From: Rhodobacteraceae bacterium EL53
Lineage (GTDB): Bacteria; Pseudomonadota; Alphaproteobacteria; Rhodobacterales; Rhodobacteraceae
Direction: 5' to 3'
Length of the DNA stretch: 64,000 nt
NCBI GenBank assembly: GCA_900313015.1
Contig: OMPR01000006.1
Span: 124,001 to 188,000, forward strand
Each line of letters begins with the position of its first letter. Position 1 is the stretch's first letter. Below the pieces are notes generated by a model, which ran no database searches, was not told the origin of the DNA, and saw only the letters and a list, made by a program, of their open reading frames with translations. This document shows positions 20,372 to 46,178 of this stretch, in pieces. The translations under genes were made by a program, and so were the position numbers.

Positions 20372-20413
20372 GCGACCCTCCGTTTGTTGGGAACAGCCTA
20401 TGGCCCCTCCTTA

Positions 20414-20457
20414 TTTATTTCAAGCTTAAAGGTTTAGGCTTGAAATAAATTCAAGCC
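20414..20457. promoter_or_regulatory. overlapping palindromic operators, probable MarR site
   Basis: Two perfect inverted repeats share one arm in the 132-base gap between kynB and the monooxygenase gene. The first has arms TTTATTTCAAGC (20414-20425) and GCTTGAAATAAA (20438-20449). The second has GGCTTGAA (20437-20444) and TTCAAGCC (20450-20457) with a five-base spacer. The second has the size of a MarR operator, and a MarR gene is the third gene of the operon to the right. The position allows control of both divergent operons. Confidence 0.65.
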
Positions 20458-20503: not shown

Positions 20504-22798
20504 ATGCGCGTTGCATGTTTGGGCGGAGGGCCTGCCGGGCTCTATTTTGCGATTTCAATGAAACTGCGTGATCCCTCGCATGAGGTCACCGTGATCGAGC
20601 GCAACAAGGGCGATGATACGTTTGGTTGGGGCGTGGTTCTAAGCGATGATGCCCTGGGCAACCTGTCGGTGAATGACCCAAAGAGCGCCGAGATGATCCG
20701 CGAAAACTTTGCCTATTGGGATGACATTGCTGTTGTCCATGACGGCGTGCGCACGGTATCGGGTGGCCATGGGTTTGCCGGAATCGGGCGCAAGAAAATG
20801 CTGCTGATCCTGCAAGAGCGGGCGCATGAACTGGGTGTCGATCTGCAGTACGAGACCGAAGCCCGCCCTGTCGCCGAATATCAGGCCGAATACGATCTAG
20901 TGGTGGCTTGTGACGGGTTGAATTCACGGGTCCGCACCGATCTGTCAGAGCACTTCAAACCGGACGTGGACACGCGCGAGTGCAAGTTCATCTGGCTTGG
21001 CACCAAGCAGAAATTCGACGATGCGTTTACCTTTATCTTTGAAAAGACCGAACATGGCTGGGTCTGGGTGCACGCCTATCAATTCGATGATGAAACCGCG
21101 ACTGTCATCGTGGAATGCAGCCAAGAGACATGGGATGCCTTTGGCTTTGAGCATATGTCCAAAGAAGACAACATCGCCACTTGCGAGCGGATTTTTGCAG
21201 ATCATCTGGATGGCCATGCGCTGATTTCCAACGCGACGCATTTGCGCGGGTCTGCAGTCTGGATCAATTTCCCCCGCGTGCTGTGTGAGAAATGGCACCA
21301 CGAGAATGTGGTTCTGATGGGGGATGCGGCGGCGACCGCGCATTTCTCGATCGGGTCCGGGTCACGTCTGGCCTTTGACAGTGCGATTTCGCTGGCGACG
21401 TTCCTGCATTCGGAACCTAACTTAGAACAGGCTTTTGTTCGGTATCAGGACGAACGCCGTTTGGACGTGCTGCGCCTTCAATCCGCAGCGCGCAATTCGC
21501 TGGAATGGTTTGAGCAGGTCGAACGCTATCTGGATATGGATCCAGTGCAGTTCAACTATTCCCTGCTGACCCGATCCCAGCGCATTAGCCACGAGAATTT
21601 GCGATTGCGAGATGCAGAATGGCTTAAGTCAGCCGAAGGTTGGTTTCAGACCCGGTCGGGGGGTGCGTCATCCCCCGTCCGCGCGCCAATGTTTGCACCC
21701 TATCAACTTCGTGACATGGCGTTGCAGAACCGGATCGTTGTGTCCCCCATGGCGCAGTACAAAGCCGAAAACGGCACCCCGACAGACTGGCATCTGGTGC
21801 ATTACGGCGAGCGCGCCAAAGGCGGTGCGGGTCTGGTCTACACCGAAATGACCTGTGTTTCTGCCGAGGGACGGATCACGCCGGGCTGTCCGGGGCTCTA
21901 TGCGCCGGAACACGAGGCAGAGTGGACCCGGTTGACCAAGTTTGTGCATCAGCATTCGAATGCAAAGATCTGTTGTCAGATCGGGCATTCCGGGCGCAAG
22001 GGGTCGACCCAGGTGGGGTGGGAGATCATGGACGCCCCCCTAAATGACGGCAATTGGGAGCTGATGTCAGCCTCGGCCCTGCCGTGGGCGGATGCGAACC
22101 AGACCCCGCGGGAAATGACCCGTGCGGATATGGACACCGTGCGGGCTCAGTTTGTGGCGGCGGCCGAGATGGCCGGGCGCGCCGGATTTGATATGATCGA
22201 ACTACACGCGGCGCACGGCTATCTGGTGTCGTCGTTCATCTCACCAGTCTCGAACGTGCGCGGCGATGAATACGGCGGATCACTAGAAAACCGGATGCGC
22301 TATCCACTGGAAGTGTTTGCCGCCATGCGTGCCGTCTGGCCTGCGGCCAAGCCTATGTCAGTGCGGATTTCAGCCAACGACTGGATGGGCGACGACGGTG
22401 TTACCCCCGAAGAGGCCGTGCAGATCGCGGCGATGTTCCGCGATGCAGGGGCCGATATCATTGACGTATCCGCCGGCCAGACCACCACCCAAGGGCAGCC
22501 GGTCTATGGCCGCATGTTCCAGACGCCATTTTCTGACCGTATCCGCAACGAGGCGGGCATCGCCACCATGGCCGTTGGCAACATCTATGAAGCCGATCAC
22601 GCCAATTCGATCCTAATGGCGGGGCGCGCCGATCTGATCTGTGTCGGACGTCCGCATCTGGCCGATCCCTATTGGACGTTGCACGAAGCCGCACGCATTG
22701 GCGACCGCGCCGCCGATTGGCCCCTGCCCTATCTGGCTGGGCGCGATCAGGCCTGGCGTCTGGCCGACCGCGATGCTGAGGCGGAGATCCGGGCGTGA
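20504..22798 (+). CDS. 2-aminobenzoyl-CoA monooxygenase/reductase (salicylyl-CoA 5-hydroxylase type)
   Basis: A 764-residue two-part flavoenzyme. Residues 1 to about 390 are an FAD monooxygenase ([11 protein letters not shown] at the N-terminus and [18 protein letters not shown] later). Residues about 395-764 are an Old-Yellow-Enzyme-type FMN reductase ([47 protein letters not shown]). This is the build of the Azoarcus enzyme that hydroxylates and reduces 2-aminobenzoyl-CoA, and of related salicylyl-CoA 5-hydroxylases. The CoA ligase, hydratase and dehydrogenase downstream and the tryptophan genes next door favour anthraniloyl-CoA. A ribosome site GGGAGAG precedes the ATG. Confidence 0.88.
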
Positions 22799-27603: not shown

Positions 27604-27999
27604 ATGACTCATCAAATTATTCAACCCAACGGTTGGTCCCCCGCCAAAGGCTATGCCAACGGAGTGTTGACAAAAGACGGGCAGTTGTATGTTGGCGGTC
27701 AGATTGGCTGGAACGCAGAGCAGGTGTTTGAAACCCATGACTTCATCGGTCAAATGGAGCAGACGCTGCGCAATATCATGGATGTCGTCGAGGCCGCCGG
27801 GGGCCAGGCAGGACACATCACCCGGTTGACGTGGTACGTAACGGACAAGAAAGAATACCTAGCCCGTCAGGGAGAAATCGGCGCCGTGTATCGCAAAATT
27901 CTGGGCCGGCATTTTCCGGCAATGGCGATGGTGGTTGTGGCCGGATTGGTCGAGGACGAAGCTTTGCTAGAGATTGAAGCGACGGCTGTCATCAACTGA
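27604..27999 (+). CDS. RidA-family enamine/imine deaminase
   Basis: A 131-residue RidA/YjgF-type protein. Family marks are YANGVLTKDGQLYVGGQIGWN near the start, the helix QTLRNIMDVVEAAGG and the end AMAMVVVAGLVEDEALLEIEATAV. RidA proteins hydrolyse reactive enamines or imines and form trimers. Directly downstream of the CoA ligase it may deaminate the amino-enone produced by the 2-aminobenzoyl-CoA monooxygenase/reductase. The family is plain; this substrate is inference. The general RidA arginine of the active site is not evident here, so this may be a subgroup member. Confidence 0.8.
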   Translation: MTHQIIQPNGWSPAKGYANGVLTKDGQLYVGGQIGWNAEQVFETHDFIGQMEQTLRNIMDVVEAAGGQAGHITRLTWYVTDKKEYLARQGEIGAVYRKILGRHFPAMAMVVVAGLVEDEALLEIEATAVIN

Positions 28000-28025
28000 C
28001 TCGACCCAACACGGAAATTCAGAAA

Positions 28026-28056
28026 CAGTCATCCCGAGGAGGAATCGGGATGACTG
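28026..28056 (+). promoter_or_regulatory. hairpin holding ribosome site in loop and start codon in stem
   Basis: A perfect 12-base inverted repeat (arms 28026-28037 and 28045-28056) encloses a seven-base loop GGAGGAA, which is the Shine-Dalgarno of the dioxygenase gene. The ATG at 28050-28052 is in the right arm. Folded, the mRNA would hide the start codon while showing the ribosome site. This could set translation or respond to temperature or a binding factor. Confidence 0.6.
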
Positions 28057-28862
28057 AAATGACCGTTAAGCAGGTCGCAGGCTATGTAGGGGCAGAGATT
28101 TCAGGCCTGTCGCTAAGCGGATTGGATGACGCCGGGTTTCAGGTGATACGGGATGCCCTGTTCACCCATGGTGTCGTGTTTTTTCGGGATCAGGGTGTCT
28201 CACCCGAAGATCATATCGCGCTGGCAGAACGCTTTGGGACCATCGACGTAAATCGGTTCTTTACCCCCGTTGCCTCCCACCCAAACATCGCTGAGGTGCG
28301 CACCGAAGCGGATCAGAAAAACGTTATTGGCGGGTCTTGGCACACCGATCATTCCTACGACACAGCGCCCGCGATGTGCTCGATCCTTGTGGCGCAGGAA
28401 TTGCCGCCCTTTGGTGGAGATACGCTGTTTGCGTCACAGACCGCCGCCTATGCGCACTTGTCAGATGGGTTAAAGGCCATGCTGGAAAATTTGAAGGCCT
28501 GGCATTCAGATGCCTCGTTCAGCGACAGCCCCAAGGATGGGCGTTTGACGGGTGACAGTGTCACAAAACCGGTGCTGCATCCGGTGGTCATTCACCACCC
28601 ACAGACCGGTGAAAAGGCGCTGTATGTGAACGGGGATTTCACCACACACTTCGAGGGCTGGACCAAGGCAGAAAGCCAGCCGCTTTTGGATTACTTGTAT
28701 GACTACTGCACCCAACCCGCGTTTGCCTTTCGGTTCCAATGGCAACCCGGCAGCGTCGCAATCTGGGACAATCGCTTGGTGCAGCATTATGCGGTGGCCG
28801 ATTATCACGGTGCGCGGCGGTTGATGCATCGTATCACGGTCGAGGGCCAGCCGCTCTACTGA
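28050..28862 (+). CDS. TauD/TfdA-family Fe(II)/2-oxoglutarate dioxygenase
   Basis: A 270-residue dioxygenase. The iron ligands are visible as HTDHSYD (His-x-Asp) and the later His in RLVQHYAVADY, with the 2-oxoglutarate-binding Arg in RLMHRITVEG. The family hydroxylates sulphonates, aryloxyacetates, quaternary amines and other small acids. The substrate here is not shown. It lies 50 bases after the RidA gene; its start is placed by GGAGG in the loop of the hairpin at 28026-28056. It may be an added function rather than part of the anthranilate core. Confidence 0.85.
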   Translation: MTEMTVKQVAGYVGAEISGLSLSGLDDAGFQVIRDALFTHGVVFFRDQGVSPEDHIALAERFGTIDVNRFFTPVASHPNIAEVRTEADQKNVIGGSWHTDHSYDTAPAMCSILVAQELPPFGGDTLFASQTAAYAHLSDGLKAMLENLKAWHSDASFSDSPKDGRLTGDSVTKPVLHPVVIHHPQTGEKALYVNGDFTTHFEGWTKAESQPLLDYLYDYCTQPAFAFRFQWQPGSVAIWDNRLVQHYAVADYHGARRLMHRITVEGQPLY

Positions 28863-28886
28863 GGCGCACCAGCGCAATCAAATTGA

Positions 28887-28909
28887 CATCCCCCGGCTTC
28901 AGGGGGATG
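28887..28909 (+). other. short hairpin between dioxygenase and BKACE genes
   Basis: Arms CATCCCCC (28887-28894) and GGGGGATG (28902-28909) form an eight-base stem with a seven-base loop. It is not followed by a T-run, so it may be a weak terminator or an mRNA-stability hairpin. Confidence 0.4.
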
Positions 28910-28940
28910 ACTTGTTCCTATCGAAATCAGGAGCCCGCTT

Positions 28941-29771
28941 ATGTCCAAACCTTGCATTTTGTGCTGCGCCATCACTGGGTCCGTTCCGACCACGGCGGAT
29001 AACCCGAATGTGCCTGTGACCATCTCACAGCAAGTCGAAAGCAGCCATGCAGCGGTCGAGGCAGGCGCGTCGATTATCCACGCCCACGTGCGCAACGATG
29101 ATGAAACCCCGACATCCGACCCGGATCGGTTTGCCCAGCTCAAGGAAGGTCTGGAGACGCACTGCCCCGGCGTGATCATTCAGTTCTCAACCGGTGGGCG
29201 GTCTGGTGCAGGACGCGATCGTGGTGGCATGTTGCCCCTAAAACCGGACATGGCCTCATTGTCGGTTGGGTCCAACAATTTTCCAACGCGCGTTTATGAG
29301 AATTCGCCCGATTTGGTGGCGTGGCTTTCGGCGGAAATGGTCAAGTATGAGATCACGCCCGAGATCGAAGCCTTTGACCTGAGCCACATTTTGCACGCGA
29401 TCCGGATGAGCGAACAAGGGTTGCTGTTTGGTAAGCTGTATGTGCAGTTCGTGATGGGTGTGAAAAACGCGATGCCTGCGGACAAAGAAGTCTTTGATTT
29501 CTACGCCAAGATCATGCGTGAACGCGCTCCAAACGCGGAATGGTGCGCCGCCGGGATTGGACCAAACCAGTTGATCGTCAACGAATGGGCAATTGCCAAT
29601 GGCGGTCACACACGCGCTGGTCTTGAGGATAACATCCGCATCGACAAGAACACCCTTGCCCCGTCAAACGCGGCATTGATCGCGAGGGCCGCTGATCTTT
29701 GCGAAAAATACGAACGCCCAGTGGCAACATTGGCGCAGGCACGTGAGATTTTGGGCCTGAAACCAACCTGA
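28941..29771 (+). CDS. BKACE-type beta-keto acid cleavage enzyme
   Basis: A 276-residue TIM-barrel enzyme of the 3-keto-5-aminohexanoate cleavage family (formerly DUF849). Zinc ligands are visible in IIHAHVRNDD, and QFSTGGRSGAG and AGIGPNQLIVNEWAIANGGH are the usual later segments. These enzymes join acetyl-CoA to a beta-keto acid and split off acetoacetate plus a new acyl-CoA. Downstream of the aminobenzoyl-CoA genes it may process a beta-keto acid from ring opening. The order of genes supports one pathway, but the exact substrate is unknown. Confidence 0.85.
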   Translation: MSKPCILCCAITGSVPTTADNPNVPVTISQQVESSHAAVEAGASIIHAHVRNDDETPTSDPDRFAQLKEGLETHCPGVIIQFSTGGRSGAGRDRGGMLPLKPDMASLSVGSNNFPTRVYENSPDLVAWLSAEMVKYEITPEIEAFDLSHILHAIRMSEQGLLFGKLYVQFVMGVKNAMPADKEVFDFYAKIMRERAPNAEWCAAGIGPNQLIVNEWAIANGGHTRAGLEDNIRIDKNTLAPSNAALIARAADLCEKYERPVATLAQAREILGLKPT

Positions 29772-46014: not shown

Positions 46015-46077
46015 TCAGTGGCCTCAGCGCTGTTGCTGCGCGGCTTTTCGCCTTGCGTCCTGCGGACGGCGGGATGT

Positions 46078-46118
46078 GGGCCCGGCAGGGCGCGGCTTTG
46101 CCGCGCCCTGCCGGGCCC
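46078..46118. terminator. perfect 19-base hairpin between convergent genes
   Basis: Two 19-base arms (46078-46096 and 46100-46118) pair perfectly around a TTT loop. No T-run follows on either side, so it may act as a two-way stem terminator or as a REP-like element. Its G+C content is very high. Confidence 0.6.
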
Positions 46119-46178
46119 AACGGGAGGAAATGTCTCGCTAGTGACATTGCCGACGGGCGGGAGTGCCCGTTTGATTAG

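Follow-up and report, generated by a model that had tools for sequence, protein, structure and literature searches.

The window, a 64,000-nucleotide stretch of DNA from Rhodobacteraceae bacterium EL53, contains a gene whose start codon lies inside a perfect inverted repeat, and the locus raises the question of whether the resulting hairpin controls translation of that gene. The gene (28050..28862, + strand) encodes a 270-aa protein of the tauD family of Fe(II)/2-oxoglutarate dioxygenases (Pfam PF02668, E 3e-70) in an intact open frame. The hairpin, designated H1, is composed of a 5' arm, CAGTCATCCCGA (28026..28037, + strand), a loop, GGAGGAA (28038..28044, + strand), and a 3' arm, TCGGGATGACTG (28045..28056, + strand), so that 12 perfect Watson-Crick pairs enclose 7 nt. 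The loop contains the Shine-Dalgarno sequence (AGGAGG, 28037-28042), the 3' arm contains the ATG (28050-28052), and the spacing between GGAGG and ATG is 7 nt. When a 161-nt context was folded, H1 was present in the minimum-energy structure (z = -3.1). The predicted fold thus pairs the AUG in a stable local hairpin, as in elements that sequester a start codon, and the loop places a GGA at the Shine-Dalgarno, as in CsrA-type sites. The sequence-only reading of this DNA had described a perfect 12-base stem with the Shine-Dalgarno in the loop GGAGGAA and the dioxygenase ATG in the stem, and that geometry was borne out.

Rarity of the hairpin over the tauD start

We assessed how often such a stem would occur by chance using first-order Markov simulations of the window (stems of at least 12, loop 3-12). 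A single perfect stem of at least 12 was obtained in 15 runs (~0.07 per window), as compared to three in the window itself. Hairpins and starts were counted over 433 kb, comprising two contigs of the 4.86-Mb genome. This search identified 10 such stems against about 0 expected, indicating that long perfect hairpins are a recurrent class in this genome, where they occur about once per 43 kb and are mostly intergenic. Among the 391 predicted starts on the two contigs, tauD was the only one with such a stem, and the runner-up had 6 Watson-Crick pairs in the same arrangement; the starts were called by a simple script (long ORFs, best Shine-Dalgarno), and the count is a yardstick in which single starts may be wrong. 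When left flanks were reassigned to the starts of other genes, stems of at least 9 appeared in ~3/10,000 trials, which is an upper estimate since a few trials still include the tauD leader or repeated sequence. The low chance claimed for this geometry therefore held up, and it is the position over the start codon, not a long hairpin as such, that is unusual. Low chance alone does not mean that H1 is under selection. We also considered a dispersed repeat or REP-like element and rejected it, since the full inverted repeat occurs once in the genome, with no further copies, and its core, shared with a second hairpin described below, occurs twice.

Other repeats were noted in the same genome. A perfect 20-bp GC-rich hairpin with a 3-nt loop and no clear T-run lies between convergent genes in the window (46077-46119), and a perfect 22-bp inverted repeat with a 5-nt loop lies directly past a gene end outside it (contig C7, 44579-44627). 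The sequence GATCCATGACCTCGAAGGGGATGACT is repeated at about 500-bp spacing on contigs C17 (230488-231515, at the contig end) and C1 (115086-115609); these copies perhaps come from one long tandem-repeat gene that was broken up in assembly.

The tauD operon and its leader in sister species

The tauD gene is part of a same-strand run that consists, in order, of a salicylyl-CoA 5-hydroxylase/oxidoreductase-type flavoenzyme (20504-22798; NF006101 above cut-off), an SDR gene (22795), a MarR regulator (23550), an enoyl-CoA hydratase (24014), an acyl-CoA dehydrogenase (24818), a benzoate-CoA-ligase-like ligase (25969), a ridA-like gene (27604..27999, + strand; Pfam PF01042), tauD, and a BKACE gene of the 3-oxoadipate:acetyl-CoA acetyltransferase type (28941..29771, + strand; NF053568 above cut-off). 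Past BKACE, after a gap, there is a likely TRAP transporter, recognized by reading of the protein sequences, with an IclR regulator, and a divergent tryptophan 2,3-dioxygenase, whose profile score is slightly under the model cut-off, lies upstream. Judged from this gene content and the divergent dioxygenase, the operon probably serves aromatic-CoA catabolism, namely anthranilate breakdown by the 2-aminobenzoyl-CoA route known from Azoarcus evansii (PMC4539516). The divergent intergenic region ahead of the operon holds an 18-nt, 94% inverted repeat (20413-20450) that may serve as an operator for the MarR regulator (23550). Since this repeat differs from H1, we rejected H1 as the operator of the MarR regulator.

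We compared the leader with those of four species of the sister genus (two of them titled Tropicibacter sp.), whose tauD is 79-81% identical; the window's own genus is represented by one genome, and a search for plasmid relatives that might add further strains gave no match. The sister leaders align with the window as GACTCGACCC...GCGGAATTCGGGAACAGTC, followed by 7-8 variable bases and then GGGAGGAATCGAAATGACC. The inner 5' arm of H1, ATCCCGA, coincides exactly with the variable bases and is not kept in the sisters, whereas the outer CAGTC, the Shine-Dalgarno and the ATG are retained in all four, and GGAGGAATCG in the region of the loop is unchanged. At the 3' arm the sisters carry TCGAAATGACCG or TCGAAATGACCA; the GGG that precedes the ATG in the window is an invariant GAA in the sisters, and codon 2 is ACT in the window as compared to ACC. 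Scored pair by pair, 4-5 of the 12 H1 pairs are broken in each sister, and both sides of a pair have changed in a single case only (12 pairs in four sisters), so that the four sisters give no indication of a stem kept by compensatory change, as a conserved cis-regulatory RNA would be. The 79 loci of the tauD family that were compared included none with a comparable stem at the start. The sequence-only reading had proposed this comparison of homologous arms and had taken unconserved arms in close relatives as evidence against translational control; because the four closest relatives that we found break the stem, the comparison went against it on this point.

The sisters do retain an imperfect quasi-palindrome, with about four outer and three inner pairs if G-U is counted, and relative to it the differences in the window are clustered on both arms of H1. 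Template switching has been documented to create and perfect hairpins (PMC8794818), including at quasipalindromes of E. coli (PMC7202029). H1 resembles these cases in having an imperfect repeat in relatives and a perfect stem with a substitution cluster in one lineage, here a derived genome that is the sole one of its genus; it differs from them in falling on a bacterial initiation site, and either arm may be the copying source. The clustered changes fit perfection of a quasipalindrome by template switch, although in five sequences with no close intermediate this is indistinguishable from the outcome of drift plus selection.

Upstream of the variable bases, the alignment with the four sisters delimits a conserved leader block, GACTCGACCC-AACA-CGGAAATTCAGAAACAGTC (27998..28030, + strand), which has no second copy in the genome and is possibly a promoter or operator. 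The block, GACTCGACCC...CGGAATTC...AACAGTC, is kept in the four sisters despite differing sequence before it, namely ridA in the window, que genes in sister locus L004 and a sulfotransferase gene in sister locus L005. A dyad in the leader reads CGACT/AGTCG in the sisters and TGACT/AGTCA in the window. A TauD protein that starts farther upstream, with an N-terminal extension, was rejected because of a 1-nt indel between sister leaders. In L004 and L005 (3822-5544), pcaC-, pcaH- and pcaG-like genes lie between tauD and BKACE, with tauD directly preceding the pcaC-like gene; the pcaC-like call comes from a CMD domain and the other two from reading of the sequences. The closest relative of the sister pcaH-like gene in the window genome (86% identity) is on contig C6, not at the tauD-BKACE gap (28862-28941).

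Predicted effect of the hairpin on translation

The modeled cost of opening positions -15 to +15 at 30 C was 31 kcal/mol for H1 as compared to 12-13 kcal/mol in four orthologous sister leaders. An effect of H1 on translation would be a plain biophysical expectation of this model. A precedent is the MS2 coat-gene hairpin, in which the start codon lies together with a partial GGAG and whose free energy is the main determinant of yield (de Smit and van Duin; PMC9894550). Since the predicted opening cost of H1 is high and the MS2 precedent links stability to yield, static dampening of tauD is to be expected. H1 is like the MS2 hairpin in that the start codon and Shine-Dalgarno share one local hairpin, but the two are not homologous; in H1 the Shine-Dalgarno is wholly in the loop and the AUG wholly in a longer perfect stem, and the influence of stability on translation is a prediction.

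The model gave no sign of a response to temperature. The unpaired probability of GGAGG was 0.99-1.00 from 10 to 80 C, and that of the AUG was 0.00-0.02 up to 80 C; the Shine-Dalgarno was not paired at low temperature, and the start codon did not melt out near physiological temperature, contrary to what would be expected of an RNA thermometer. We therefore rejected a thermometer, because in the model the stem stays closed below 80 C and the Shine-Dalgarno is always open. Simple hairpin thermometers such as cyanobacterial hsp17 (PMC4477652) also place a hairpin over the initiation region, but in hsp17 the ribosome binding site is paired in a stem with an internal bulge and responds to temperature, unlike the unpaired Shine-Dalgarno and perfect, non-melting stem of H1.

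CsrA and RsmA proteins read a GGA in a hairpin loop over the Shine-Dalgarno. This layout, which H1 shares with their repression sites, would suit a switch in which a protein, a small RNA or an upstream ribosome opens H1 on a signal, and an upstream TGACT (27997-28001) could compete for the AGTCA of the 5' arm. However, CsrA (PF02599) was absent from this genome and the four sisters, while the same search found it in the E. coli, B. subtilis and T. maritima controls, and a CsrA site was therefore rejected. A known RNA family was rejected as well, since an Rfam covariance search returned nothing above the gathering score; its only hit was mir-M7, on the other strand, with 19.3 bits against a cut-off of 91. 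The 12-bp stem is much stronger than the competing 5-bp pairing, and a ribosome terminating at the ridA stop, 26 nt from the stem, would be too distant to keep it open. Together with the unconserved arms and the lack of a modeled thermal response, these results make a responsive switch quite improbable. The suggestion of translational control made by the sequence-only reading thus survived in part: lowered translation is predicted by the difference in opening cost, whereas a conserved or responsive switch is not supported, in view of the unconserved arms in four relatives, the absence of any modeled response from 10 to 80 C, the Rfam search and the missing CsrA.

The true effect on tauD could still be small, if the 30S subunit docks at the exposed Shine-Dalgarno and the stem then opens, or if ribosomes reinitiate from ridA. 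Carried further, H1 would be a neutral by-product of little effect, with tauD translated through loop docking, through ridA re-initiation or from an ATG at 28059 just outside the stem. The state of the gene agrees with this. The tauD gene is undamaged, and purifying selection has acted on it across the comparison as a whole (relative to the sisters, dN is about 0.13-0.15 and dS is close to saturation); the window branch has no clear excess of amino acid changes when judged with two outgroups, results that also led us to reject a decayed tauD. We nevertheless consider a neutral by-product rather unlikely, since opening H1 is predicted to cost far more than opening the orthologous leaders, and since the sisters do not share the ATG at 28059.

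The explanation that we favor, to which we assign about an even chance, is that H1 is a lineage-specific static start-codon hairpin, probably perfected by template switch, that dampens tauD translation. The ancestor would have had an imperfect inverted repeat around the tauD Shine-Dalgarno like that of the sisters, which in this lineage was perfected, most likely by a template switch in which one arm served as the template for the other. In the mRNA, the resulting 12-bp stem would hold the AUG in paired form and leave the Shine-Dalgarno accessible in the loop. Initiation at tauD would consequently be slow, leaving less TauD than the products of its operon neighbours, and H1 would act independently of a ligand or protein.

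A second hairpin beyond tauD and the shared motif

One observation is left unaccounted for by a static hairpin. An 8-bp hairpin, H2 (CATCCCCC-GGCTTCA-GGGGGATG; 28887..28909, + strand), lies between tauD and BKACE and is followed by ACT. A scan of the 4.86-Mb genome found the motif CATCCC-N11-GGGATGACT, with the same spacing, at H1 and H2 (28887-28912) and nowhere else, and the shorter core CATCCC-N(3-20)-GGGATG was likewise confined to H1 and H2 in 433 kb. The two hairpins occupy the gaps on either side of tauD, and neither is followed by a T-run. One repeat could have been seeded by the other.

These observations would suit two copies of one tauD-flanking element. As a two-site operator, it would have 9-bp half-sites (AGTCATCCC/GGGATGACT) 20 bp apart on the same DNA face; as paired intercistronic hairpins, it would set the decay of the tauD segment within the polycistronic message, and such hairpins often determine differential decay within operons (PMC5927463). 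Against this, the left half-site of H2 has 2 mismatches, and the sister loci contain neither GGGATGACT nor a CATCCC/GGGATG dyad. H2 by itself is ordinary, since 7 of 91 same-strand gaps hold a perfect hairpin of at least 8 bp. The match between H1 and H2 was spotted post hoc, with a chance of roughly one in one to two thousand as estimated from the genome frequency of the core. We regard a two-copy element as unlikely. A bolder version, which we hold to be very doubtful, is that H1 and H2 form a gene-specific palindrome pair that brackets no gene but tauD in the long catabolic operon, the two together setting its translation and mRNA lifetime or binding one protein. If true, the pair would allow this lineage to set one enzyme independently of the rest of its operon, and it is the part of the finding that is worth bench attention.

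The locus shows why the presence of one perfect hairpin whose loop carries the Shine-Dalgarno should not, on its own, be taken as evidence for a conserved switch. If H1 does lower tauD translation, it would be a clean case of a template-switch-type mutation making a perfect initiation hairpin, in which the output of one gene was re-set inside its operon and four sister species preserve the 'before' state.
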